From positions 2,640,501-2,704,500 of the forward strand of contig NZ_CP116902.1 of NCBI RefSeq assembly GCF_028471905.1: a DNA stretch of 64,000 nt. Direction: 5' to 3'. Shown here in pieces: positions 2,398-62,458 of this stretch. How positions within the stretch are numbered: position 1 is the first letter of the stretch; each line of letters opens with the position of its first letter. Both the position numbers and the translations under genes were made by a program. The stretch comes from Aneurinibacillus uraniidurans. Its GTDB lineage: Bacteria > Bacillota > Bacilli > Aneurinibacillales > Aneurinibacillaceae. The notes beneath the pieces are model-generated. The model was not told the origin of the DNA. It was given only the letters and a program-made list of their open reading frames with translations, and ran no database searches.

Positions 2398-2835
2398 TTA
2401 CTCTTCGATTACTTTAACTTCTTTCATTGCGTCGCCTTGCTTGATCGCATCTACATAATCCATGCCTTCAACAATTTTACCGAATACAGTGTGAATGCCG
2501 TCAAGGTGTGGGAACGCATCATATGTGATGTAGAACTGACTTCCGCCTGTATCTTTACCAGCATGTGCCATAGCCAGAACGCCACGCTCATGCTTGTGCG
2601 GGTTGCCTGCTGTTTCACATTTGATTGTGTAGCCAGGGCCGCCTGTCCCTGTTCCTTGCGGGCATCCGCCCTGTGCTACGAAGCCCGGGATAACACGGTG
2701 GAATGTCAGACCGTTGTAGAAGCCTTCGTTTGCAAGTTTTTCAAAGTTAGCTACTGTACCCGGTGCTTCTCCATCGTGCAGAAGGATTTTTACCTGGCCG
2801 CCTTTTTCAAGATCAATAACAGCGTATTTACTCAT
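2398..2835 (-). CDS. ppiB: cyclophilin-type peptidyl-prolyl cis-trans isomerase
   Basis: This is a 145-residue cytoplasmic cyclophilin that speeds proline isomerisation during protein folding. It contains the conserved [13 protein letters not shown] segment with catalytic Arg47, the GTGGPGY segment, and a GGSQFYIT-type core strand. There is no signal peptide. The start has AAAGGGG upstream, somewhat far from the ATG. In B. subtilis ppiB neighbours lysA and the rib operon, so its position here next to rib is part of the conserved backbone; lysA has been moved about 30 kb away by inserted genes. Confidence 0.95.
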
Positions 2836-2921
2836 ATGTAAGTACCCCTTTCAGTCAATCAAGTATGTATATGTTATACTCCTCGATTATACGCTATACA
2901 CAGCGAAAAAGAAAACGTCTG

Positions 2922-3299
2922 CTAGTCCTCTCCGACGAAAAACAAATGCGCCGGGCAGCGGCAATCAGAAGAACCGAATCTTCGCACCGGAATTTCTCCC
3001 TTTGCTTCTTCCATGAGCCGGGCAAACAGTTCGCATTCACCTTCCGCACCAGAATACGTCTGCACGTCGACAACGTCCATATACGGACGCACATAATCAA
3101 AATGCCAGCGCATCGTTTTCTCCATTCGCATATGCCGCTCTACCCTGGCTCGAATATTTCGTTTCGCACTTCCAACATATACGTACAATCCACGCACGAA
3201 CAGAAATGTCCCGAGCTTTCCAACCGTAATCTCTGTATCACTTGGCAAATACGCCTTAACATGATACAGCGTATGCTGTTCATCGATTCTCACATTCAT
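2922..3299 (-). CDS. GIY-YIG domain (DUF123) protein
   Basis: This small protein of about 125 residues belongs to the DUF123 branch of GIY-YIG nuclease-like proteins. The signature is LYVYVGSAKRNIRARVERHM, where GLYVYVGSA replaces GIY-YIG, and the conserved CRCPAHLFF segment near the end supplies Cys and His. I chose the ATG at 3,299 because AAGG precedes it at a workable distance; an ATG four codons upstream has its AAGGG too close. Cellular function is unknown for this family. It is a monocistronic gene between ppiB and a chemoreceptor. Confidence 0.8.
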   Translation of the reverse strand: MNVRIDEQHTLYHVKAYLPSDTEITVGKLGTFLFVRGLYVYVGSAKRNIRARVERHMRMEKTMRWHFDYVRPYMDVVDVQTYSGAEGECELFARLMEEAKGEIPVRRFGSSDCRCPAHLFFVGED

Positions 3300-3458
3300 T
3301 TTCCTTACCATCCCTTGCCTAATATCATGAAAATATTACATAAAATTAACTGTAAATACATATGAAAATCCCTACTTAATCATTAAGATAGTAACTGTTA
3401 TCATGAGCCCAATTTGCCTATGTGTTACTGTTATTATACTAGAGGAGTGTACGTAAGG

Positions 3459-5138
3459 ATGAAAATCAGGACAAAGCTTATTTTGGGAATTAGCATGCTG
3501 TTTATTTTCAGCGTGAGTATGGGGATTCTTGCGGTTATAGAGAACGAAAAAACGCAAGTCTCGTATAACAATGTTTTAAAAAACAGAGAAGATGTACGGT
3601 ATTACTTGAAAAATATCCAATATAGAATTGTAGGGATTTCTAATGATGAAAGGGCGTATTTGCTTACAGGAGACAGCCAGTTCAAAGATGAGACCGAAAA
3701 AAAGATAGCGGATATCAAAGAATATCTATCCATTATTAAAGGACGAGAGTTAAGCTCGGATGAACGTGAAGCCATCGGGAATCTGGAGAACGGTATCCAT
3801 GCCTTTCTAGAAGTAAGTACTGTAGTTAAAAACACGTATGAAAAAGATAAACATAAAGCCCTTCAACTTCATCTTACCGATGAGCGAGATGTGCGAAAGA
3901 AAACGATGGATCCGACTATTAACAAAGCGGTGGAATTAATAGACAAGCATACTGCTATGGATTTAGACAAAATAAATAAAAGTAATTTTGTAGCGAATAC
4001 CATTTTACGGACTCTTGTTCCTGCATCCGTAATTTTTGGTTTGATTGTGATGGTTCTTTTACTACGTTCCATTAAACCTCTCGAATTGTTACAAAATGAA
4101 TTTAAAACGATCGCCAATGGAGACTTAACGCAACCTCTTGAAATAAAATCAAAAGACGAAATTGGCGAATTATCCAGTTCAGTCAATGTGATGATTGAAA
4201 ATTTGCGTTCTACCATTTCAACCATTAGCGACTCCTCTCATCAAGTATCAACCGCTGCAGAGGAGCTGCTAGCAAGTTCTGAACACACCCATCGGGCAAC
4301 CGAACATATTACGGTAACAATTGAGGAATTAGCATTAGGTACGGATAAACAGGTACAAAGTGTGGAAGAAACATCTCAAATCGTCGACGAGATGTCTAGT
4401 CGTGTGCAACAAATTTCGATTCGCACCCAAGATGTTTCTACTACCGCCACCCATGCTCTCGAAAAAGCTATGGAAGGAAATCAGGCGATCCAAACGACGG
4501 TTGAACAAATGAATTCCATAAGCGAAACGGTCGAAGGTTTTACACAAAAGATCAAGGAATTGGGCGAACGTTCGAATGAAATCGGGGAAATTGTCGAGGT
4601 AATCACAAGTATCGCAGCTCAAACAAACCTGCTCGCCTTAAATGCAGCAATTGAAGCAGCACGAGCGGGAGAGCAGGGAAAAGGATTTGCGATAGTCGCG
4701 GATGAAGTTCGGAAATTAGCAGAACAATCCGCTCAATCTGCTGAACAGATTGCCAGGTTAATTACAGGCATTCAGGTAGATACAAACGCAGCAGTTATAT
4801 CTACGGAAAATGTAACAAAAGAAGTGGAAGAAGGAATTCATGTTGTCCATGTAACCGGGGAGTATTTCAAGCAAATCGAAAATAAAATTGACCAGGTTGC
4901 CAATCAGATTAAAGAGGTTTCAGATTCAGTTCATCAAATATCGTTCGGTACCGATCAGGTTGTTCATTCCATAAATACGGTTACGGGAGTGGCAGAGGTA
5001 GCAGCTTCAAGAACACAAAGTGTGTCTGCCGCTACTGAGGAACAATTTGCCTCGATAGATGGTATTATTTCAGCCGCCACGTCTCTTTCTAAGATGTCGG
5101 AAAATTTACAGACGTTGATTGAGCGGTTTAAAGTTTAA
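3459..5138 (+). CDS. methyl-accepting chemotaxis protein
   Basis: This is a transmembrane chemoreceptor of about 559 residues. An N-terminal membrane helix ([18 protein letters not shown]) is followed by an extracellular helical domain of about 160 residues, a second membrane helix ([17 protein letters not shown]), a HAMP linker, and the cytoplasmic signalling hairpin with the tip [20 protein letters not shown] that contacts CheW and CheA. The start at 3,459 follows GAGGAGTG and gives the usual MKIRTKL start; the reading frame continues upstream without a sensible N-terminus. The ligand is unknown. The four-helix-like sensor resembles 4HB/CHASE3-type sensors. No chemotaxis genes adjoin it, so it is an orphan receptor. 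Confidence 0.92.
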
Positions 5139-9472: not shown

Positions 9473-10345
9473 ATGGATTTCGCCAAAATAGGCGCGCACA
9501 TTCGAGACATACGAAAGTCATTAAAAATAACTCAGGGAGAAATCGCACACGGAATTTGCACGCAGGGATTAATTAGCCGCATTGAGAAAGGAGAGTTAAT
9601 TCCTTCCGCTGACATTCTCTATAAAATCTCGAAAAAACTCGGTGTAGATATTAATTACTTCTTTCATTATGCGGAAACACCAAGTCTTGCATATGTACAA
9701 GAGGTGATGTATCAAGTGCGCAAGTTCATACGGGATCGTAATTATCAAGAGGTCGCCGAAATCATACATGTTGAAATGAAAAATCCACTATTTCAGCCGC
9801 CTGCCTTCCAGCAATTTTTACTCTGGCATCATGGAATCTGCACATACTACATCCAGAAAAATATGGAGGAAGCATTTGCACTTATTCAGAAAGCGCTTGA
9901 TATGAGTGAACCGGGGAGCAACACTTATTCAGAACGTAACATTGAAATATTGAACAGCATGGCTATTTTATATAGCGAAGAAGGGCAGCATAAAGAGGCC
10001 ATTGCTATTTTAGAAAAAGCAATGACCCATTTAAAAGCGTTGTCCCATCAAAAAGATGCTCGAATCGAAATTCGCTTGCTGTATAGCTTAGCCAAATCCC
10101 TCACAATCGAAGGGCAATATGAAAATTCCATTCATTACTGTCAAAGAGGAAGCAAGCTATGTCTTCAAGCCGAATCACTCTACTTGTTTGGAGAGATGAC
10201 GTTTCAACACGGGTATAATTTATTACAATTGAATCGGAAAGAAGAAGCGCTTGTGTATCTTTATCGGGCTCGCAATATTTTTCAGCTGCAAAATAACGTA
10301 AATTTCGTGGCGTACATAGATGAAGAAATACGCTATCTGGATTAA
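9473..10345 (+). CDS. XRE-family HTH regulator with TPR repeats (RRNPP-like)
   Basis: From the ATG at 9,473, preceded by GAGGTAAAG, the protein has 290 residues. The N-terminus is an XRE helix-turn-helix (IGAHIRDIRKSLKITQGEIA...GLISRIEKGELIPS). The rest, about residues 70-290, is a run of TPR-like helical pairs (EEAFALIQKALDMSE, EAIAILEKAMTHLKA, EEALVYLYRARNIFQ). This architecture is that of RRNPP regulators such as PlcR, NprR and Rgg, which bind a small re-imported peptide. No peptide gene follows it; the small ORF divergent at 9,113-9,304 is the only local candidate. An oligopeptide importer (opp) is encoded at 45-50 kb. Its targets are unknown. Confidence 0.8.
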   Translation: MDFAKIGAHIRDIRKSLKITQGEIAHGICTQGLISRIEKGELIPSADILYKISKKLGVDINYFFHYAETPSLAYVQEVMYQVRKFIRDRNYQEVAEIIHVEMKNPLFQPPAFQQFLLWHHGICTYYIQKNMEEAFALIQKALDMSEPGSNTYSERNIEILNSMAILYSEEGQHKEAIAILEKAMTHLKALSHQKDARIEIRLLYSLAKSLTIEGQYENSIHYCQRGSKLCLQAESLYLFGEMTFQHGYNLLQLNRKEEALVYLYRARNIFQLQNNVNFVAYIDEEIRYLD

Positions 10346-10353
10346 TTGCTTCC

Positions 10354-11217
10354 TTATTTATCGCAAGACAAGTCTGCCATAAATCGCGTCAATTCCTGCA
10401 TATATCCCTCACTCAGCAAATCACTTCCGGCAATAATCGTATCCCGATACGCCGGAGAAGGAGCCATGTCCGGCTGCTTGTTCACAACCGTATACGTCCA
10501 GGCCTGAACCATTCTGTTCTCTACCTTAACTTCGACCATAATTCGCTCATAAATTCCCGCTTTAACACCTTCACGCCTGTCGAGTGCTGGCAGCAAATCC
10601 GCAGGAATTGCATACAGCACCCCCTCTGTCTGCCGCCCCGATGCAGGCAGTACATCTGCCACGCCTCCCTGCCATTTATATGCGGAATAATGTGTGAATC
10701 CAATCCGGTAATCATCCAGCACCGCCCGACTCAACACACGGTATACCGGCACATCGACTGCGAAGCTATCGCGGTTCATACAAGACCCATACGCAAAGTA
10801 CATCTCCCACGCTTCGCCTCGCTGATACGCACGCCAGTCTCCAGCTGGCAGGAAGATTGCATCAGGCTCCAGCCTGTTTTGGTGCCTGTCAGGATATATG
10901 TACACATAGCAGTCATGCGTTTGACCGTCTTCGGTTACAACTGTTGTTACGATGCGTTCATACTCGTTATCCGGACAGTTTGCTTCATATCCTTCCAGCC
11001 AATCCATCGCAGCAAGCGCCGCCGGAACATCGCGCAATTCAAGTAGTTGCCCACTTACTTTTCCGGCACCAGGAATCATCGTTGGATACCCGTACGGGAG
11101 ATGATACAGCCACCCCTGGATTGTCGCTTCCGAAGTACTTTGTACGAAGGGAGACACAACATGATGATTGCTTTCTCCCTTACAGAGCGTTCCATATACG
11201 AATGCTTTGTTAATCAC
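10354..11217 (-). CDS. tandem gamma-glutamylcyclotransferase-like (GGCT) protein
   Basis: The protein has two GGCT/AIG2-like domains in one chain. Domain 1 (about residues 1-135) opens with AFVYGTLCKGE and has WLEGYEAN, and domain 2 (about 140-287) opens with YFAYGSCMNRDSF and has LDRREGVKAGIYERI. The glycine-rich YG(S/T) loop and the following acidic EG position of the active site are present in both. Such enzymes cyclise gamma-glutamyl compounds to release 5-oxoproline. The GTG at 11,217 is preferred because GGGGGA lies at proper distance. It is probably a single gene, 9 bases from the convergent regulator end. Confidence 0.82.
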   Translation of the reverse strand: MINKAFVYGTLCKGESNHHVVSPFVQSTSEATIQGWLYHLPYGYPTMIPGAGKVSGQLLELRDVPAALAAMDWLEGYEANCPDNEYERIVTTVVTEDGQTHDCYVYIYPDRHQNRLEPDAIFLPAGDWRAYQRGEAWEMYFAYGSCMNRDSFAVDVPVYRVLSRAVLDDYRIGFTHYSAYKWQGGVADVLPASGRQTEGVLYAIPADLLPALDRREGVKAGIYERIMVEVKVENRMVQAWTYTVVNKQPDMAPSPAYRDTIIAGSDLLSEGYMQELTRFMADLSCDK

Positions 11218-11239
11218 AAACACTCCCCCTTTTTCTATA

Positions 11240-11265
11240 CAAAAAGGCCCGGAATTCCCCGAGCC
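11240..11265 (-). terminator. terminator after the sugar kinase
   Basis: On the minus strand GGCTCGGGGAATTCCGGGCC forms a stem with one mismatch, followed by TTTTT. It ends the nagA-glycosidase-kinase unit and precedes the cyclotransferase gene. Confidence 0.8.
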
Positions 11266-11280
11266 ACATTTGTTTTACTG

Positions 11281-12267
11281 TTATTCTTGCAAATCATCCA
11301 GTGCCTTGTTAACGGCTGTCATGTACGGCAGCGCTGGAATTGCCCCGCGCTGCTCTGTCGCAAGCGCTCCCGCCGCATTCGCAAACGTAAGCAGCTGCAC
11401 AAGCCCCTCATGATCAAATCCATCGAGCACATCGCCCAAATTACAAGTCATTCGTTCCGCCAACTGGTACAAAACTGCCCCGATAAACGCATCACCCGCA
11501 CCTGTCGCATCCACAGCCTGTGCCGGAATCCCCGGCACATCACCTGTCGAACCATCCGATAACACATACGTACTGCCCTGCTTACCACGTGTAATGAGAA
11601 CAAGCCGCACCCCCTGTGTAAACCAGGATGCTGCCCCTTCTCTTACATTCGCTGTACCCGTCAGAAACTCCAGCTCTTCCTCACTCACCTTCACCACATC
11701 CGCAAGCGGCATGTACGAAAGAATCGTTCGGCGGGCATCTTCTGCCCCAGGCCAGAGAGCAAGTCGCACATTCGGATCATAACTGACCAGCAGGCCATGC
11801 TTCCGTGCCTGTTCCGCGGCATATACCGTAGCCGAGCGTGCCGGTTCTGCAATTAATGACAGCGAGCCAAAATGAAACACAGCCGCATCCGTAAATAGCT
11901 CATCAGTAATGTCGTTTCTTTCAAGTAACATATCCGCTGCCGGATCGCGATAGAACAGGAAATCTCGCTCCCCGTCTTCTTTCAATGACACAAAGGCAAG
12001 CCCCGTCTTCACTTCTGCCGTCCGTGTCAGAAAGCGAGTATCCACGCCAACATCTACAAGTGTCTGAATAAGGAAATCACCAAATGCATCCGCACCTGTT
12101 TTTCCGATGAACCGGGCGCGACCACCAAGCCTGGCAACGGCCGCCGCTACATTAGCAGGCGCCCCCCCTGGCGCTTTGCGAAATGATCCCACATCAGCAA
12201 GCGCCTGCCCGTTCGTTTCCGGCACAAAATCAATCAGCAACTCCCCCAGAGAAAGTACAGCCTTCAC
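11281..12267 (-). CDS. PfkB-family carbohydrate kinase (fructokinase-like)
   Basis: This is a ribokinase-fold sugar kinase of 328 residues. It has the N-terminal GG signature (FRKAPGGAPANVAAAVARLGG) and the C-terminal signature VDATGAGDAFIGAVL with the catalytic Asp in GAGDAF. Sequence style is that of bacterial fructokinase (ScrK), but substrate cannot be set by eye. I chose the GTG at 12,267, which has AGGAGGG at the right distance; the ATG at 12,285 overlaps the stop of the upstream glycosidase. It is the last gene of a nagA-GH2-kinase unit, so it may phosphorylate the sugar released by the glycosidase. Confidence 0.85.
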   Translation of the reverse strand: MKAVLSLGELLIDFVPETNGQALADVGSFRKAPGGAPANVAAAVARLGGRARFIGKTGADAFGDFLIQTLVDVGVDTRFLTRTAEVKTGLAFVSLKEDGERDFLFYRDPAADMLLERNDITDELFTDAAVFHFGSLSLIAEPARSATVYAAEQARKHGLLVSYDPNVRLALWPGAEDARRTILSYMPLADVVKVSEEELEFLTGTANVREGAASWFTQGVRLVLITRGKQGSTYVLSDGSTGDVPGIPAQAVDATGAGDAFIGAVLYQLAERMTCNLGDVLDGFDHEGLVQLLTFANAAGALATEQRGAIPALPYMTAVNKALDDLQE

Positions 12268-12281
12268 TCGTGCAACCCTCC

Positions 12282-14528
12282 TCATAATCCAGCGTTCACA
12301 TCAGCCGCCGTCTCCATCTCCTCTGCCTTACCATGCGTGTGCAGCACACAATCATTGTGAGCCATAACACAACCGTCTCGATCGCGTAGCACCCCTTCTA
12401 ACCGGTATACCTCACCTGAAGCAGGCAAGGTTAGCACAGCCCGATCAAAACAGCGAGTAGAATCCTCCTCAATCAGCGGCGCCAGCACAATGCGTTCTTC
12501 AAGCACCGCTCCGTCCATATCCAGCAGCCGATACGCAATTTCTAATCCTTCATACCCCCGATATTCATCATTGACGACCCACGCTTCCATCGTCACCTGC
12601 ACCGTATCATCCACCCGCTCCACATTACCTGTAAACGACAAAAGCAGAGGCGCAAACGCTTTCTGAATTGCATGATACGCTTTTTTCGGCTGGCGATAAT
12701 AATCAATAATCGCCCAATCAATCGCTGGCCACGTATTTACGAAATGAAACTGTAGTATTCCATTTACCTGGTTATATTTCCGGCGACGCAATGCTTCTGT
12801 ATGTGCCTTATAAAAAGCAACCTGATAGTTTTGCGTCTGCTCTACCAATTCTTCTAAAGAATCCGGCAGCTCACCCGTCCGCTTTTCACAAATTACATTC
12901 TGAAAGCCCCGCTTGCGCCAGGCATTCATATCCGGCGGCCATAGCTCATCAGGTGCGAGAAACCTACGCAGCGATGCCACATCCGGCAATGATTGCGTAC
13001 CGTATTCGGTCACAAACAACGGATTATACTGTTCGGCGTCTTCAATCTTGCCCCAGTACCAGCCCACCCAGTTCACACTCAAATGCTCCGGCACATAGGC
13101 AGCGAAATGATCCCATGTTGCAAAAAAAGGCGGCAGCTCCCCTTGATCAATCAACACCGAATTTTTATGCACAGGACGGGTTGGATCTGCTTTTTGCACG
13201 GTTTCCATCAGCACCGCATCAAGCTTGTTATAATCATGCATACGCGACTCGCTGTGACAACACCAGAGCGCAATTGATGGATGATGCGTGAGGCGCTCAA
13301 CGAATCGGCGGCTTATATCAGCGGCGCGATTGATGAATTCACCGTCAGAGCGGTAGCCCCATTGGAACGGTAAATCTTGAAAAATGAGCAAGCCCTTTTC
13401 ATCACATAGACGATAAAACTCTTCTTTCTCCGCATGAGCGAACAAGCGGGTCATATTCATATGCGCATCGAGCATCATCTGCACGTCACGCTCATATTTC
13501 ATCTCATCCATCAGTGATAAAAACTGATTGGACAAATAATTGTTTCCTTTAATAAAGAGACGCTTGCCATTCACATACACACCCCAATCCGCTTCAATGC
13601 GGATGTCACGAATGCCGAATGTGATTTCCTTCGTCTCGATCACCGTTGTACCGCACGTAAGTTCAACAATCGCACGGTACAAATTCGGCTCCCCGAGTCC
13701 TCGACTCCACCAGAGCATCGGATTTGGCATTACAAGACGCATCATCCGATTTCCAACTCCCGGTGGAACAAATAACCCCTCACTAGTAACAGCAGCTGTA
13801 TCTCCTACAAAATTATGCGGCACAATTCGTACCGTCAGCGCATAGTCCGCTTCCTGTCTACTATCATTGTTCCAGCGCACATCTACATATACGCGGGCAG
13901 ACTTATAATCATCCGCCAAATAAGGAGTAACGCGAACATCCGTCAGATGAACAATCGGGCGCATCTGAAGCACTACATCCTGCCAGATGCCACCCGGATT
14001 TACAAGCGGATTCGGGTATTGTTCATTCGCCGCAGACGGTACTTCCGGGCAGTCCGCGAGACCCTGCTGGCGCACCGGCAGGCAATCCCAGTGATACAGA
14101 CCACCCTTTGCAATCGCCTTACGCTCCGGATTCGCATCCAAAGCAGCAGTCACTTTCACAATCAAATCATTTTCTCTTCCAAAATGAATGGCATCCGTCA
14201 CACGGAAGGAAAACGCATCAAAATCTCCTTCATGCGCTCCAAGATAGTGACCGTTCAACCATACTTCCGCAAAATAATCCACACCACCAAAATGCAAATA
14301 ATACGAAATATCATCTTGTCGTGCTGGCACTGTAAACAGGCGACGATACCACATCACTCCCTGATGGTCCGCAAATCCTGCCTGCTGCCAATGCGCGGGA
14401 ACGATAATATCATGCCACGGTTGTTCACTCGCCTTATATACCACATAGTTGTTGATACTAGTTTCTATTATATTGTCCGGGTCGGGCATGCATTGCCACA
14501 TGCCACTAATGTTTAGTTCCTGATGCAT
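12282..14528 (-). CDS. glycoside hydrolase family 2 protein (beta-mannosidase-like)
   Basis: The 748-residue enzyme has the GH2 layout: a sugar-binding jelly roll (HWQQAGFADHQGVMWYRRLFTVP, VWLNGHYLGAHEG), an immunoglobulin-like domain, and a TIM barrel. The presumed acid/base Glu is in CCHSES near base 13,250 and the nucleophile Glu in VTEYGTQS near base 13,005. There is no signal peptide, so it acts in the cytoplasm on imported oligosaccharides. The start at 14,528 follows GAGGTGG; the frame runs 47 codons farther up but without a good site. With nagA and a PfkB kinase beside it, a substrate containing beta-linked mannose or glucosamine is possible. Beta-mannosidase, exo-glucosaminidase and galactosidase activities cannot be separated here. 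Confidence 0.85.
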   Translation of the reverse strand: MHQELNISGMWQCMPDPDNIIETSINNYVVYKASEQPWHDIIVPAHWQQAGFADHQGVMWYRRLFTVPARQDDISYYLHFGGVDYFAEVWLNGHYLGAHEGDFDAFSFRVTDAIHFGRENDLIVKVTAALDANPERKAIAKGGLYHWDCLPVRQQGLADCPEVPSAANEQYPNPLVNPGGIWQDVVLQMRPIVHLTDVRVTPYLADDYKSARVYVDVRWNNDSRQEADYALTVRIVPHNFVGDTAAVTSEGLFVPPGVGNRMMRLVMPNPMLWWSRGLGEPNLYRAIVELTCGTTVIETKEITFGIRDIRIEADWGVYVNGKRLFIKGNNYLSNQFLSLMDEMKYERDVQMMLDAHMNMTRLFAHAEKEEFYRLCDEKGLLIFQDLPFQWGYRSDGEFINRAADISRRFVERLTHHPSIALWCCHSESRMHDYNKLDAVLMETVQKADPTRPVHKNSVLIDQGELPPFFATWDHFAAYVPEHLSVNWVGWYWGKIEDAEQYNPLFVTEYGTQSLPDVASLRRFLAPDELWPPDMNAWRKRGFQNVICEKRTGELPDSLEELVEQTQNYQVAFYKAHTEALRRRKYNQVNGILQFHFVNTWPAIDWAIIDYYRQPKKAYHAIQKAFAPLLLSFTGNVERVDDTVQVTMEAWVVNDEYRGYEGLEIAYRLLDMDGAVLEERIVLAPLIEEDSTRCFDRAVLTLPASGEVYRLEGVLRDRDGCVMAHNDCVLHTHGKAEEMETAADVNAGL

Positions 14529-29447: not shown

Positions 29448-29466
29448 GTTCGTACATAAAACAGAG

Positions 29467-29502
29467 AAGCTGTCCCATAAGTAAGTGGGGGCAGCTTTTT
29501 TC
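29467..29502 (+). terminator. terminator after hit
   Basis: AAGCTGTCCCA and TGGGGGCAGCTT form a stem with an 8-base loop followed by six T and C. The left end of repeat element A touches this terminator. Confidence 0.85.
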
Positions 29503-30120
29503 TTGGCAGAGGATTTCGCCAAAGTGTAGTGGAGGAGCGGGATCGGGCGGGGCCTCGTCACTTCGGTACGCTTACGGAGAAGCTGTAACTGTCCGCTTCA
29601 GGTGCCAGACGAACTTGCCCACAAAAAAAGGCCTACGATGTATATACACCGAAGCGTTGTGGACAAAAATCGTTCGTCTGACCCCTTCCGCTAAGCAGGC
29701 CCGTACAGGCGTTCCGCTTCCCCGCCCGATCCCGCTCCTTGCACACTTTGGATGAAAATCATCAAGCAAGATCAAGAAACTGAGCTTTGCTATGCAGATA
29801 AAGAATTAGGAAGAGATCTTACGAAAAGCCAGCAGCTACCGAGCAAATCCATTCTGACGACGAGAGTTTTTTTGTAAATTGAAACGTTGTGCGGGGAGTG
29901 GGAGAAGGGAGGAGCACGAGCGCCTGTACGCGCCTACTTAGCGGAGGGAGGACGGCGAACGGGCCTTTTGTCCGCAATTCTTCGGTGAATCGGCATCACG
30001 AGCTTTTCTTTGCGGGCAAGTTCGCCGGGCTCCCGGAGCGGACAGCTCCCACTTCCCTGCAAGCGTACCGAAGCGAACGGCTCCTCCCTTCTCCCACTCC
30101 CTCCCCCACACTTTCGATTC
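29502..30120. repeat. repeat element A (two inverted modules around a spacer)
   Basis: This 619-bp stretch holds no convincing gene and is repeated at 43,310-43,930 with clear similarity along its length. Left module A1 (about 29,523-29,747) and right module A2 (about 29,886-30,110) are homologous in opposite orientation, sharing CTTCGGTACGCTT, CTGTCCGCT, CGAACTTGCCC, GGACAAAA and TCCGCTAAG in the same order. Each module is closed by its own inverted repeat: 20 bp perfect in A1 (AGGAGCGGGATCGGGCGGGG) and 22 bp in A2 (29,894-29,915 with 30,080-30,101). The arms of A1 and A2 are different sequences. A spacer of about 138 bp between them is about 87% like that of element B by eye. No transposase, target duplication or known insertion sequence was seen. 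Confidence 0.85.
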
Positions 30121-30130
30121 TACAAAAAAA

Positions 30131-30166
30131 GCTGTCTCGTCCGCCATGTTCCGGCTTTGGGACAGC
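30131..30166 (-). terminator. orphan intrinsic terminator next to element A
   Basis: GCTGTCCC and GAGACAGC pair (7 of 8 bases) and the minus strand then has seven T. No minus-strand gene precedes it, so it would end a transcript running leftward from the ubiD region into element A. The loop sequence matches the terminators of fur and, more loosely, lysA (dispersed family). Confidence 0.6.
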
Positions 30167-30268
30167 CTTCAAGCAGCACTCTATTTCACCAACGATAAAA
30201 GACTGATAAAATGGACAGTAAAAGCATGTGGGAACAATACATTTCTACAGATTGGAGCAATTCACATT

Positions 30269-32489: not shown

Positions 32490-32508
32490 TTGTACGTTGT
32501 CAATTCTA

Positions 32509-32564
32509 CAAAAACGAGGCTGTCTTACTCGCTATATTCTAGCTTGTAAGATAGCCTCGTTTCT
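32509..32564. terminator. bidirectional terminator between VOC gene and lysA
   Basis: CGAGGCTGTCTTAC and GTAAGATAGCCTCG form a 14-bp stem with one mismatch (32,515-32,528 and 32,546-32,559). The minus side runs into TTTTTG and the plus side into TTTCTTTT. The loop (TCGCTATATTCTAGCTT) resembles the loops of the hairpins at 30,131 and 62,419. Confidence 0.85.
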
Positions 32565-40447: not shown

Positions 40448-40583
40448 GCGATAGACCCCTCCAGTGATTACTCTCTTCACCAGTGTGGCCCGAAATAATG
40501 GAATTATATACCTAACAAAGTACGAGGTAGCATTTTGTTTTTTGTGGTGTCGACAACGTTTCGATTCAAAAAAAGAAAAACTA

Positions 40584-40612
40584 TTGCTTTCTTATTTCTA
40601 TTTTCTTTATAT
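40584..40612 (+). promoter_or_regulatory. candidate sigma-A promoter for the MBOAT pair
   Basis: TTGCTT and TTATAT are separated by 17 bases, 56 bases upstream of the TTG start of the acyltransferase. The area is AT-rich, so chance matches are easy. Nothing else is evident in the 40,448-40,667 gap. Confidence 0.4.
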
Positions 40613-40667
40613 TTAAAGGATGGCTTCTATAGTATTAGATTTAATCTGACAGAAACAGGTGATACGT

Positions 40668-43309: not shown

Positions 43310-43930
43310 CTTGATGGAGGGTTTCTCCAAAGTGTGGTGGAGGAGCAGGATCGGGCGGGACCTCGTCACTTCGGTACGCTCCCTAAGGAGTAGGGACTGT
43401 CCGCTCCAGGTGCCAGGTGAACTCGCCCACAAAAGGGGCTCACGATGTATTTGCATCGAAGTATTGTGGGCAAAAGCCCGTTCACCTCGCCCCTTCCGCT
43501 GGGGAGTCGCGTATAGGCGTTCCGTTGCCCCGCCCGACCCCGCTCCTAGCATACTTTGGATAAAAATCATCAAGCAATATCAAGAGGCTGAGCTTTGCTA
43601 TGCAGATAAAGAATTAGGAAGCGGTCTTGCGAGAAGCTAGTGACTACCGAGGAAATTTATTCTGACGACGAGAGTTTTTTTGTAAATCGAAACGTTGTGC
43701 GGGGAGTGGGAGAAGGGAGGAGCAAGAGAGCACCTGTACGCGCCACCCCAGCGGAGGGAGAACGGCGAACGGGCCTTTTGCCCGCAACACGTCAGTGAAT
43801 CAACATCGTGGGCTTTTCTTTGCGGGCGAGTTCGTCGAGCTCCCGGAGCGGACAGTCCTCACTTCCCTGCAAGCGTACCGAAGCGAACGGCTCCTCCCTT
43901 CTCCCACTCCCTCACCACCACACGTTTTCA
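43310..43930. repeat. repeat element B (two inverted modules around a spacer)
   Basis: A 621-bp stretch without a convincing gene, homologous to element A (29,502-30,120) in the same orientation. Module B1 (about 43,331-43,555) is closed by arms that match A1 but with several changes and three mismatches. Module B2 (about 43,693-43,921) has a perfect 22-bp inverted repeat identical to A2's arms (43,701-43,722 with 43,888-43,909). The spacer retains GAGCTTTGCTATGCAGATAA exactly. It fills the gap between the 3' ends of the DHHW gene and phzF, so it may also serve as a terminator for both. No transposase, direct target repeat or RNA gene of known family was found. Confidence 0.85.
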
Positions 43931-50315: not shown

Positions 50316-50446
50316 GAACCTCCTCTTTTTATTCAGTATGTTACTAAAACGTGATTTGTAATTACATAATTTGATTTTTTATGATGATAATCATAGTCTG
50401 CCAATTACAAGCTCTAGTATGAAAACGAACCAATTCCATAAGAAAA

Positions 50447-50489
50447 GAGACCATCTCAACAGCTGTAATACTGCAATTGAGATAGTCCC
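50447..50489 (-). terminator. terminator after the HxlR regulator
   Basis: GGGACTATCTCAA and TTGAGATGGTCTC form a 13-bp stem with wobbles, followed by TTTTCTT on the minus strand. The rest of the 50,316-50,446 gap upstream of oppA is AT-rich without a clear further signal. Confidence 0.78.
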
Positions 50490-50527
50490 TTCTTTAAAAT
50501 TCCAGAGTCTTTATAGTTGAAAAGGGG

Positions 50528-55052: not shown

Positions 55053-55868
55053 TTACTTTAAATCTGGTATGATCGCTTTTACAAGCGAAAGAAAATGAGG
55101 CCGGGTACGATTCGCTACTTCCATTACCTGGTCATGTGTAAGCGGAGCCAGTTCTTCTCCGATAGCCATATCGGTTACACACGCAATGCCAAGCACTTTG
55201 AGTCCAGCATGGCTGGCCGCAATTACTTCTGGTACGGTCGACATACCGACTGCATCTGCCCCAATCCGAGCAAGCATCGTGAGCTCTGCTGGCGTCATAT
55301 ACGAAGGACCACTAATTCCCGCATACACCCCTTCCTGTACAGCAATACCAAGCTCCCCCGCTTTCGCGCGAGCATGCTTACGATACGCATCCGTATACGC
55401 ATCCGACATATCCGGGAAGCGTGGACCAAACGTCGGAAGGTTCGCACCGATTAGCGGATGATCACCCGTCCAATTAATGTGATCGCAAATGAGCATCAAA
55501 TCACCTGGTGCGAATGCTTTGTTCATACCACCGCATGCATTCGTCACAACAAGCGAGGCGATCCCTAACTGCCGCATTACATACACAGGAAGTGTGACCT
55601 GCTGCATCGTATACCCTTCATAATAATGAAAACGCCCCTGCATGGCCGCAACCGTTCGTCCTTCAAGTGTCCCGACTACTAGTTCTCCTTTGTGTCCTTC
55701 TACAGTCGACACCGGAAAATGTGGAATGTCACCATACGGAATTCGCACTGCATCCGTAATTTCGTCAGCCAACACCCCGAGACCAGACCCGAGAATGAGT
55801 CCGACCTCCGGCTTGCGCGGGCCAATCTTCTCCTGAATAAACGCGGCAGAAGCCTCTATCTGCTTCAT
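55053..55868 (-). CDS. purine nucleoside phosphorylase paralogue 1 (altered base-binding residues)
   Basis: This 271-residue protein is a trimeric-type nucleoside phosphorylase. The phosphate-site GSGLG, GRFHYYEG and TNACGG motifs are intact. The two purine-contacting positions differ from the standard enzyme: GPSYMTPAE has Met where PNP has Glu, and CVTDMAIG has Asp where PNP has Asn. In human enzymes Asn at this site selects 6-oxopurines, while MTA phosphorylase has Asp. So it may accept a 6-aminopurine nucleoside or another substrate. It overlaps paralogue 2. I prefer ATG 55,868 (GGGAGAC upstream), but ATG 55,880, overlapping the stop, is possible. Confidence 0.88.
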   Translation of the reverse strand: MKQIEASAAFIQEKIGPRKPEVGLILGSGLGVLADEITDAVRIPYGDIPHFPVSTVEGHKGELVVGTLEGRTVAAMQGRFHYYEGYTMQQVTLPVYVMRQLGIASLVVTNACGGMNKAFAPGDLMLICDHINWTGDHPLIGANLPTFGPRFPDMSDAYTDAYRKHARAKAGELGIAVQEGVYAGISGPSYMTPAELTMLARIGADAVGMSTVPEVIAASHAGLKVLGIACVTDMAIGEELAPLTHDQVMEVANRTRPHFLSLVKAIIPDLK

Positions 55869-55879
55869 TCTGTCTCCCA

Positions 55880-56713
55880 TTATACGTCCCCCCGTGGCAT
55901 CTCCTGTACAATCTCCTTCACAAGCGTCAAAAATGTATGCTTCACTTTCTCAGCCGTCTCCATTACTTCGTCATGCGACAATGGTTGCGGTAAAATACCC
56001 GCCGCCATATTGCTAATGCAGGAAATCCCAAGTACACGCAGTCCAATATGACGGGCTACGATCACTTCCGGTACAGTTGACATGCCAACCGCATCACCGC
56101 CAAGAATGCGGATCATCCGAATTTCCGCTGGTGTCTCATAACTTGGGCCAAGCATGCCCGCATATACACCTTCTTGTAGCTTAATGCCGCGGCGCTCTGC
56201 CACCTGGCGTGCCAGCATCCGCAACTTCGGACAATACGCCGCTGACATATCCGGGAAGCGCACACCAATCGCCTCATCATTCGGTCCAATTAGCGGGTGA
56301 CGACCAGTCAGATTCAAGTGATCCGAAATCAGCATAAGATCACCCGCTTCATACGATTCGTTCACACCTCCGGCTGCATTCGTCACGATGATACTCGTAA
56401 CGCCTATCGCTTTCATGACATGAACCGGAAACGTCACCGCATCTAGTCCATGCCCTTCATAGTAATGGAAACGTCCCTGCATCGCGACAACCGTCTTACC
56501 GTGAAGCTGTCCGATGACAAGCTGCCCTTTATGCCCCTCTACGGTCGAAATCGGAAAATGTGGAATGTCACCATATGGAATATAAACCGCATCGGTAATT
56601 TCATCCGCTAACACCCCGAGACCTGACCCAAGAATCAGTCCGATCTCCGGGCGGGCGGTTGTTTGTTGGGTAATATACGTTTGTACATCATGAATCGCAG
56701 CTTGATCTGGCAT
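55880..56713 (-). CDS. punA: purine nucleoside phosphorylase
   Basis: The 277-residue enzyme cleaves inosine and guanosine with phosphate to the base and ribose 1-phosphate. It has GSGLG, GRFHYYEG, TNAAGGVN, GPSYETPAE with the base-binding Glu, and CISNMAAG with the base-binding Asn. It follows deoB and overlaps paralogue 1 (TAATG), giving a deoB-punA-punA2 salvage operon. It corresponds to B. subtilis pupG (deoD-like order drm-pupG). Confidence 0.95.
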   Translation of the reverse strand: MPDQAAIHDVQTYITQQTTARPEIGLILGSGLGVLADEITDAVYIPYGDIPHFPISTVEGHKGQLVIGQLHGKTVVAMQGRFHYYEGHGLDAVTFPVHVMKAIGVTSIIVTNAAGGVNESYEAGDLMLISDHLNLTGRHPLIGPNDEAIGVRFPDMSAAYCPKLRMLARQVAERRGIKLQEGVYAGMLGPSYETPAEIRMIRILGGDAVGMSTVPEVIVARHIGLRVLGISCISNMAAGILPQPLSHDEVMETAEKVKHTFLTLVKEIVQEMPRGDV

Positions 56714-62410: not shown

Positions 62411-62458
62411 ACGAAAAAAGCCGTCCCGTTCGCCATATTCTGGCTTTTGGGACAGCTT
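62411..62458 (-). terminator. terminator after fur
   Basis: GCTGTCCC and GGGACGGC form a stem around CAAAAGCCAGAATATGGCGA, then six T on the minus strand. Its loop and arms match the orphan terminator at 30,131-30,166. Confidence 0.87.

Follow-up and report, generated by a model that had tools for sequence, protein, structure and literature searches.

REP repeats are located near gene ends, and bcr1 of Bacillus cereus is a dispersed Bacillales repeat of the MITE kind, single-module, about 155 bp long and with an RNA-like structure. Integron attC sites are strand-specific recombination sites that act as folded single strands. Details of lagging-strand transposition are known from IS608, and they lie behind the comparison of polarity made below. 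In the opening parts of their abstracts, REP and BIME sequences are described as high-copy palindromic repeats in alternating orientation (PMC2817692), with a REP unit of 20-40 bp (PMC3733652), and REPs as targets of insertion sequences (PMC1525189). In abstracts of the same kind, IS200/IS605 elements have secondary structures at their ends and use the lagging-strand template (PMC6006769), while MITEs and other small mobile sequences (RU, ERIC, RUP, Correia) are non-autonomous intergenic repeats (PMC2229807).

The nearest kind to the element described here is the bacterial interspersed palindromic repeat (REP/BIME) or the MITE. As far as those abstracts go, it shares with REP/BIME the high copy number, the alternating palindromes and the role as insertion sequence target, but its modules of about 235 nt lie far outside the 20-40 bp range and are branched and covarying. 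Like the MITEs of the abstract it is non-autonomous, intergenic and bordered by terminal inverted repeats; unlike MITEs it shows no target duplication at the eight unoccupied sites read, a two-module design across genera and a strong polarity in four genomes. Compared with IS200/IS605, the element is without a transposase, its ends are inverted homologs, its structure is far larger and the Y1 transposase does not track it. Both bcr1 and the element are dispersed and structured; the element has two modules, and the two are set apart by description. A folded single strand, putative for the element, is shared with attC, whereas the copies of the element are dispersed at gene ends. The element may also resemble GC-rich repeats found in other Bacillaceae. 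Among literature listings and the opening parts of abstracts we found no description of it.

Architecture of the element

The window is the whole stretch of 64 kb that was analysed, positions 2640501-2704500 of the single-contig, 3.85-Mb genome of the host (G000); a congener (G004) serves as the main comparison. From the letters alone, a repeat of about 620 bp had been described at 29502-30120 and again at 43310-43930, and block alignment bears this out at 84-87% identity. In our delimitation copy 1 covers 29520-30111 and copy 2 43327-43929; they share blocks of 253 and 194 nt at 87% and one of 129 nt at 84% identity, and homologous blocks lie 13808-13810 apart. Each copy had been read as module, spacer and inverted module, and the corresponding inverted repeats are found at 29534-29668/29966-30100 (72%) and 43334-43433/43819-43918 (71%). 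The two modules, each about 235 nt long, are homologous but distinct and face outward. Their cores are homologous and their outer arms dissimilar, and each arm still pairs with its own partner, just as the sequence-only reading had it.

Copy 1 starts with a terminator-like hairpin with a T-run (GAAGCTGTCCC..GGGGCAGCTTTTTT) at 29466-29502 on the plus strand, directed into the element and recognised from the sequence and an alignment of 28 copies. Module 1 follows at 29520-29751, with its outward (S) strand on the minus strand, facing left. It is supported by module match, fold and a match (G000:2670053-2670218, minus) of R1, a covariance model of the module core built from 38 modules, and its outer end bears GTGTAGTGGAGGAG at 29524-29537. 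After the spacer (29752-29880, from alignment) comes module 2 at 29881-30111, with the S strand on the plus strand, facing right, the outer end CTCCCTCCCCCACAC, and equivalent support from module match, fold and R1 (G000:2670414-2670580, plus). An inverted terminator-like hairpin at 30124-30169 on the minus strand, again directed into the element, closes the copy; it is seen in the sequence and in hairpin profile matches at 30113-30168 and 30124-30168. In copy 2, module 1 lies at 43327-43558 (minus; module match and alignment), the spacer at 43559-43688 (alignment) and module 2 at 43689-43929 (plus; module match and R1 match G000:2684224-2684390, plus), and the right hairpin is not recognisable.

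The consensus unit, taken from 28 full copies of the host and the congener, consists of hairpin, module 1, a spacer of about 130 bp, inverted module 2 and inverted hairpin, with the hairpin pair incomplete in some copies. It measures about 600 bp and is bounded by short inverted ends, TGTRGTGG...CCACCACA, which are imperfect in some copies. The same terminal inverted repeats, TGTRGTGG/CCACCACA, stand in the consensus of the host clade and of the genome G311, as in a MITE, and single copies deviate from them, for example on the right side of copy 1 in the window.

Frames of 86-120 aa overlap both window copies; they are not the same frames in copy 1 and copy 2, and no conserved reading frame shared by the two was seen. 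Since no frame is common to both and small indels are scattered among the copies, we take the element as non-coding. No promoter was demonstrated in the spacer. Elsewhere in the window, 55395-56650 holds direct repeats of 201 and 153 nt (79% and 73%) at a spacing of 839 bp, perhaps a duplicated gene region.

An rRNA or tRNA fragment had been named among the counter-readings, and in Rfam release 15 no family reaches its gathering threshold on the modules; the window as a whole gives only an FMN riboswitch at 2109-2255 on the minus strand (115.6 bits). These searches covered the window, 16 loci of the genomes G002, G003, G007 and G009, and 16 loci from the class. At relaxed settings the best match on the element is MIR1437 with 24.8 bits against a cut-off of 168, and one module locus (L109) matches MIR5998 with 38.5 bits (E 8.7e-5) against 180, which we take as a generic long hairpin. 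In 16 further loci nothing appeared except one snoRNA match of 24.8 bits (L239). A phage or plasmid origin was considered and dropped, with no match in phage or plasmid collections. The Y1 transposase (PF01797), the family to which the RAYT enzymes of REP/BIME repeats belong, was uninformative as a correlate: with the RAYT subfamily not separated, it occurs in 14 of the 15 genomes sampled from the order regardless of the element, and the only host match, at 1873000-1873359, lies outside the listed copies, so that no Y1 is encoded by or adjacent to them. No autonomous transposon sharing the ends of the element was noticed in an unsystematic look.

A conserved fold in one part of the Bacilli

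Both modules are predicted to fold far better than expected. Module 1 reaches -112 kcal/mol compared with -76.1 (sd 5.4) for shuffles (z -6.67), and module 2 -123.5 compared with -90.3 (z -6.53); in neither case was any of 200 shuffles as good. The predicted fold has a long closing stem P1, a helix P2, a long P3/P4 arm that starts at a GC-GGA/GGA (or TCC/GGA) step, an apical loop, and a 3' hairpin that starts with CGGACAG, usually CGGACAGTNNNNNCTTCCYYG. The junctions are conserved, with CCCAGC before P3, the GGA/GGA (or TCC/GGA) step and CGGACAG after it, and relatives in G009 and G002 have other helices around identical junctions.

A covariance model and a test of covariation had been proposed together with the first description, and in both alignments studied the pairing goes beyond the controls. 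The model R2 was built from 17 modules (15 of family f23 and two of f30), without any sequence of the host family. In this set 93.3% of the cells in 37 pairs are paired, 22 pairs show double changes, and all 11 pairs of helix P3 covary. The covariation score is 0.515 compared with 0.183 in shuffles, a value reached by none of 500. When partners are slid along the alignment, 39-49% are paired and the covariation is 0.07-0.13, a comparison in which the tested structures are favoured since they are RNAalifold consensus structures of the same alignments. In the alignment of 38 modules (37 from the host clade, one from G009) the figures are 96.7% paired, double changes in 18 of 33 pairs, and a score of 0.304 compared with 0.181. 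The arm pairing of the window copies is in this way conserved in further copies as well. Further, in 68 distinct modules, left after 20 of 88 distinct rows without the junction motif or of short length were dropped, at least 16 of the 37 pairs are seen in all four Watson-Crick types. While the junctions stay conserved, the helices next to them have been rebuilt by compensatory changes. The invariance of CGGACAG in the R2 loci is partly due to selection, because the class loci were found with the pattern CGGACAG..CTTCC; in 21 model-found loci of G311, CGGACAG is kept and the CTTCC part of the pattern is replaced (CGGACAGTC-TCAGCCCCCAGC in the consensus).

A sequence search with copy 1 found about 40 places in the host genome, with best pieces 76-87% identical, when 40 of the 83 candidates were scored. 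The load of G004 is similar (about 40 scored places); four of the other five congeners had no match and one a weak match. With R1 the host has 95 modules, G004 at least 150 (all of the 150 candidates scored), G007 23, G009 14, G003 six and G002 five. R1 finds no module in a further five members of the family (G001, G005, G006, G008, G010) or in four genomes of another family of the order. The element is accordingly patchy in its genus, being present in four of seven genomes.

In the class, a 22-base junction pattern occurs in 20 of 398 genomes, and the same pattern read backwards gives one match in the 398. R2 matches 59 of them, with a best E-value of 1.5e-50 and six candidates scored per genome. 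It recovers the host at 5.7e-20 and G004 at 2.1e-21, although the host family is absent from the model. Matches are found in 31 of the 35 sampled genomes of f23, and also in f18, f24, f26, f30 and f31. In named genomes a junction-like pattern occurs in 110 stretches, of which 80 were listed. The clade matches among those listed are Aneurinibacillus tyrosinisolvens and terranovensis, Brevibacillus daliensis, reuszeri, panacihumi and migulae, a Thermoactinomyces, and Croceifilum oryzae. The 70 other listed loci, from many phyla and including one Paenibacillus, are probably chance matches; 22 of them (21 outside the Bacilli and the Paenibacillus) and six viral contigs with the pattern are taken as chance because they score at most 23.4 bits with R2. 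We take f23 as Brevibacillaceae because one of its loci (L237, in G257) scores identically to a locus of B. panacihumi (L141), and f18 as Thermoactinomycetaceae because L245 (in G390) scores identically to the Thermoactinomyces locus L180. By the same kind of reasoning the window probably comes from a relative of Aneurinibacillus. As identified here, the module appears to occur in one part of the Bacilli, including Aneurinibacillus, Brevibacillus and Thermoactinomycetaceae.

Nine genomes of one or two contigs hold 61, 66, 52, 48, 28, 66, 31, 14 and five modules, and two genomes of family f5 hold none. Outward module pairs like those of the window are found in f23 and named Brevibacillus loci (L123, L157, L240, L255, L262, L270, L272, L286, L141, and twice in L166), in Croceifilum (L182) and in G007 (L090). 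Tandem copies also occur beside divergent pairs. In two genomes, G213 and G249, whole units are arrayed head to tail about every 518-520 bp, with as many as four at one site; in most of these units module A is strong and the inverted module B weak. Such arrays, of three or four units, are found at 1370054-1371784, 729067-730278 and 4790736-4791947 of G213, and at 5494069-5495276 and 4781057-4782265 of G249. They contain the most recent-looking copies seen. Judged from these comparisons, the module is old and the two-module design recurs in several genera.

Genomic place, polarity and turnover

In the host and G004, 42 of 82 elements or fragments lie between tandem genes, 35 between convergent and five between divergent genes, as counted with simple gene calls, with orthologous copies entering twice and two at stretch ends left out. 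Terminator-like hairpins stand beside many copies, both in the 28-copy alignment and in a profile search, which was used in place of a strict pattern that matched 11 hairpins. Two loci hinted that the target terminator is duplicated upon insertion. This idea was rejected, as the left and right hairpin of one locus resemble each other no more than hairpins of different loci do (permutation p 0.96, 31 copies with both hairpins among 67 full copies). The flanking hairpins behave as element-borne. Hairpins of the same type also occur alone in the window, at 32495-32558, 50446-50494 and 62413-62458. The first of these, on the minus strand and found by the profile search, carries the TTTTTGTAGAATTGACAACG tail of the module-2 side and is likely a relict.

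Occupancy was compared between the host and G004, as had been suggested at the outset, and both shared and unshared sites were found. For 26 host sites with an orthologous stretch in G004, 20 are shared and six are occupied in the host only; most of these stretches were chosen because they bear copies, and among ten sites in stretches chosen by synteny five are shared. Element sequence is present in G004 only at four sites, one of them a fragment. Eight unoccupied sites were read: an unrelated terminator stands at four (L003, L006, L011, L018), relicts of a deletion at L019 and L065, and a lone hairpin at L027 and L062. None of the eight is a clean empty site with a target-site duplication. 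The initial statement that there is no transposase, target duplication or gene agrees with what we see, namely no transposase in the element, no target duplication at these eight sites and no conserved frame. Short direct repeats, ACGTTGT, flank module 2. At L021, L025 and the L006 copy near 474-1010 module 2 is gone and one ACGTTGT (ACAACGT) is left, as if it had been excised between the repeats.

Some further differences between the two genomes can be observed. The window gap 40452-40661 has no element, and the orthologous gap in G004 (L295 7572-7805) bears a module-2 copy. In the G004 ortholog of window copy 2 an additional stretch of about 1 kb separates the two modules (L295 10804-11811); it has short frames, two of which find no match in Pfam. 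Three IS110-family insertions that share a 420-aa frame (Pfam DEDD_Tnp_IS110 and Transposase_20) are found in G004, at L080 about 2518-4150 and 10144-11780 and at L068 about 10938-12570, all at one spot in the apical loop of module 2. A match that ends at the same place suggests a fourth at G004:2914673-2915172.

The orientation of the modules shows a clear polarity relative to replication in some hosts. In four single-contig genomes of g28, assigned to Brevibacillus by way of the f23 score link and each with a DnaA-like frame in its first 4 kb, 92 of 95 listed loci point toward the origin (p 7e-24), where same-strand matches within 3 kb were merged and 120 of 227 matches were listed, the weaker ones being left out. 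In the first half of the genome the listed modules occupy the minus strand, in the second half the plus strand. None of the three exceptions scores above 102.3 bits, and one of these loci (L371) has another module of similar strength in the opposite orientation. Gene direction does not explain this, because among 41 origin-pointing modules of G311 and G275 the gene on the 3' side points at the element in only 27 and the other neighbour agrees in only 28, by simple ORF calls. Polarity is absent in G240 (6 of 14), in G212 (5 of 10) and in G054 (2 of 6; no DnaA-like frame was found at its start). It is also absent in the host, where a hand tally with an assumed origin gives 9 versus 12 in the first half and 10 versus 9 in the second. 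A polarity such as IS200/IS605 insertion would leave is seen in four genomes and not in three others or the host. Transposition on the lagging-strand template, as the IS200/IS605 abstract presents it, gives polarity of this kind and would explain it.

Ten full-length orthologous pairs average 85.3% identity, compared with 83.4% for paralogs in the host, 84.2% for paralogs in G004 and 83.3% for non-orthologous cross pairs. The ortholog is the best match in four of ten cases, and in two it ranks 20th or 21st of 24. In 55 flanking genes 70.8% identity is kept at 4-fold sites; the most variable columns of the element have 45.3% in orthologs versus 39.2% in any cross pair. It seems that sites are often inherited and the sequences at them exchanged or replaced, with a fast saturation of the free columns as the alternative. 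Outside the tandem arrays the best identity between copies is 90.5% and 91.2% within the two genomes and 92.5% across them, and 87.2% among 21 loci of G311. As there is no near-identical pair outside the arrays, no recent transposition is caught.

Between orthologs, single changes at pairs break the pair in 145 cases and keep it as a wobble in 100. Double changes keep it in 25 and break it in 15, and these 40 compare with 16 expected. Differences affect 10.1% of paired and 17.1% of unpaired positions. When the starting point is a standard pair, pairing survives 42.7% of single changes compared with 35.0% expected from the unpaired spectrum (p 0.014), which speaks against a wholly neutral decay of single copies. 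Single copies are not free of constraint, because paired sites change less and pairs are kept slightly above expectation. This constraint is weak but present, far below the covariation of the family; it suits an element selected for spreading and leaves room for a function. At the level of the family, covariation bears out the original argument that pairing would be lost under simple duplication and decay; in single copies only this weak constraint is seen.

Which strand is read can be addressed by wobble and by folding. On the outward strand wobble-type departures exceed A-C mismatches in both modules; over 68 modules there are 103 GU versus 43 AC, with 26 of the 103 at one mostly-wobble pair. 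When the unpaired columns, which have much of this C/T bias too, serve as the control, GC pairs do not differ from them in module 1 (p 0.30) and do differ in module 2 (p 5e-5), and AT pairs do not differ. The case for an RNA strand from wobble is of moderate weight, since the raw excess shrank under this control. In four sets of the host clade the advantage of the outward strand over its complement in folding exceeds that in shuffles (p 0.009 to 3e-10). For modules of Brevibacillus neither strand is preferred (7 of 16, p 0.21). Among nine modules from G002, G003, G007 and G009 it is mostly the complement that has the better fold outright (7 of 9), but by a smaller margin than in shuffles (p 0.012). 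Overall there is a slight preference for the outward strand, which is compatible with RNA or single-stranded DNA.

Explanations for the element

Our leading reading, held tentatively and with a chance just short of even, is an old, non-coding and non-autonomous dispersed element whose spread is coupled to replication and which is recognised, through its folded single strand, by a factor acting in trans. It builds on the observed architecture, covariation, distribution, location at gene 3' ends, polarity in four genomes, turnover at occupied sites and weak constraint on single copies; mobility, the RNA or DNA nature and the trans factor are what we infer. The factor would recognise the folded outward strand, probably where the replication fork exposes it, and would insert or overwrite copies beside terminators. 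Selection would then act mainly on the ability to spread, so that the family keeps its fold while single copies drift. A factor that reads the fold at the fork and prefers terminators would explain the fold, the polarity, the gene-end location, the inverted ends and the non-coding nature. A bolder form, which we consider unlikely, is a parasite free of protein, in which two divergent structured RNAs (or folded single strands) as its ends program insertion at terminators, on one strand of the fork, and overwrite older copies.

The sequence-only reading had offered three possibilities, and a non-autonomous palindromic element fits best: copy number, patchiness, recurring ends, gene 3' ends and the polarity in some hosts speak for such a new family, with mobility still inferred. 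A large structured RNA agrees with the conserved structure and some wobble asymmetry, while the mutational control weakens the argument for an RNA strand. If each element were a pair of divergently transcribed RNAs kept for a function in the cell, which is possible though on balance doubtful, the strong covariation with conserved unpaired bases, the GU excess on the S strand, the better folding of that strand in the host clade and the slower change and slight retention of pairs would all be expected. Against this, much of the C/T bias is shared by unpaired columns, Brevibacillus modules have no strand preference in folding, the spacer of L123 is by eye only about 45 bp and the spacer has no demonstrated promoter, and three of seven congeners do without the element. 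A chromosome-organising repeat draws on the strong polarity of the four Brevibacillus-type genomes, which the host lacks. More generally, polar gene-end repeats could be maintained by the host as bidirectional terminators, nuclease stops or marks of replication polarity; gene-end location, flanking hairpins, polarity along the replichores of the four genomes and the unrelated terminators at four of the eight unoccupied sites point that way. We hold this improbable, as the element is patchy in the genus, the polarity is not general, a simple terminator is found at such unoccupied sites, and an elaborate conserved fold is unnecessary for termination.

Two further explanations appear very improbable. 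An RNA mobilised by a reverse transcriptase, SINE-like or an intron without ORF, would account for a conserved single-strand fold and replication polarity, which are also traits of group II intron retrohoming. However, RVT_1 (PF00078) has no match in the host or in G004, the two richest genomes examined, although 12 of 15 genomes of the order have one, and no intron of Rfam matches. Equally slight is the chance of an ordinary MITE in decay, with covariation only from correction of the palindrome by template switching. The long, near-perfect arms and the weak pairing constraint between orthologs would suit it, but so many pairs occur in all four Watson-Crick types while unpaired bases stay, and it is disfavoured because correction alone would not protect unpaired bases.

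Dispersed repeats of bacteria are usually short palindromes or transposon remnants, and here the fold is complex and deeply conserved. This is apparently a large, undescribed family of non-coding elements, with a two-module design, dozens of copies per genome and a near-absolute replication polarity in some hosts, and it lies outside Rfam. If the bolder form of the leading reading is true, insertion and overwriting programmed by a fold would be a new mode of propagation. The family makes testable the view that selection in a non-coding element acts on a folded single strand, and it offers more than 100 natural structures for finding the protein that reads them.
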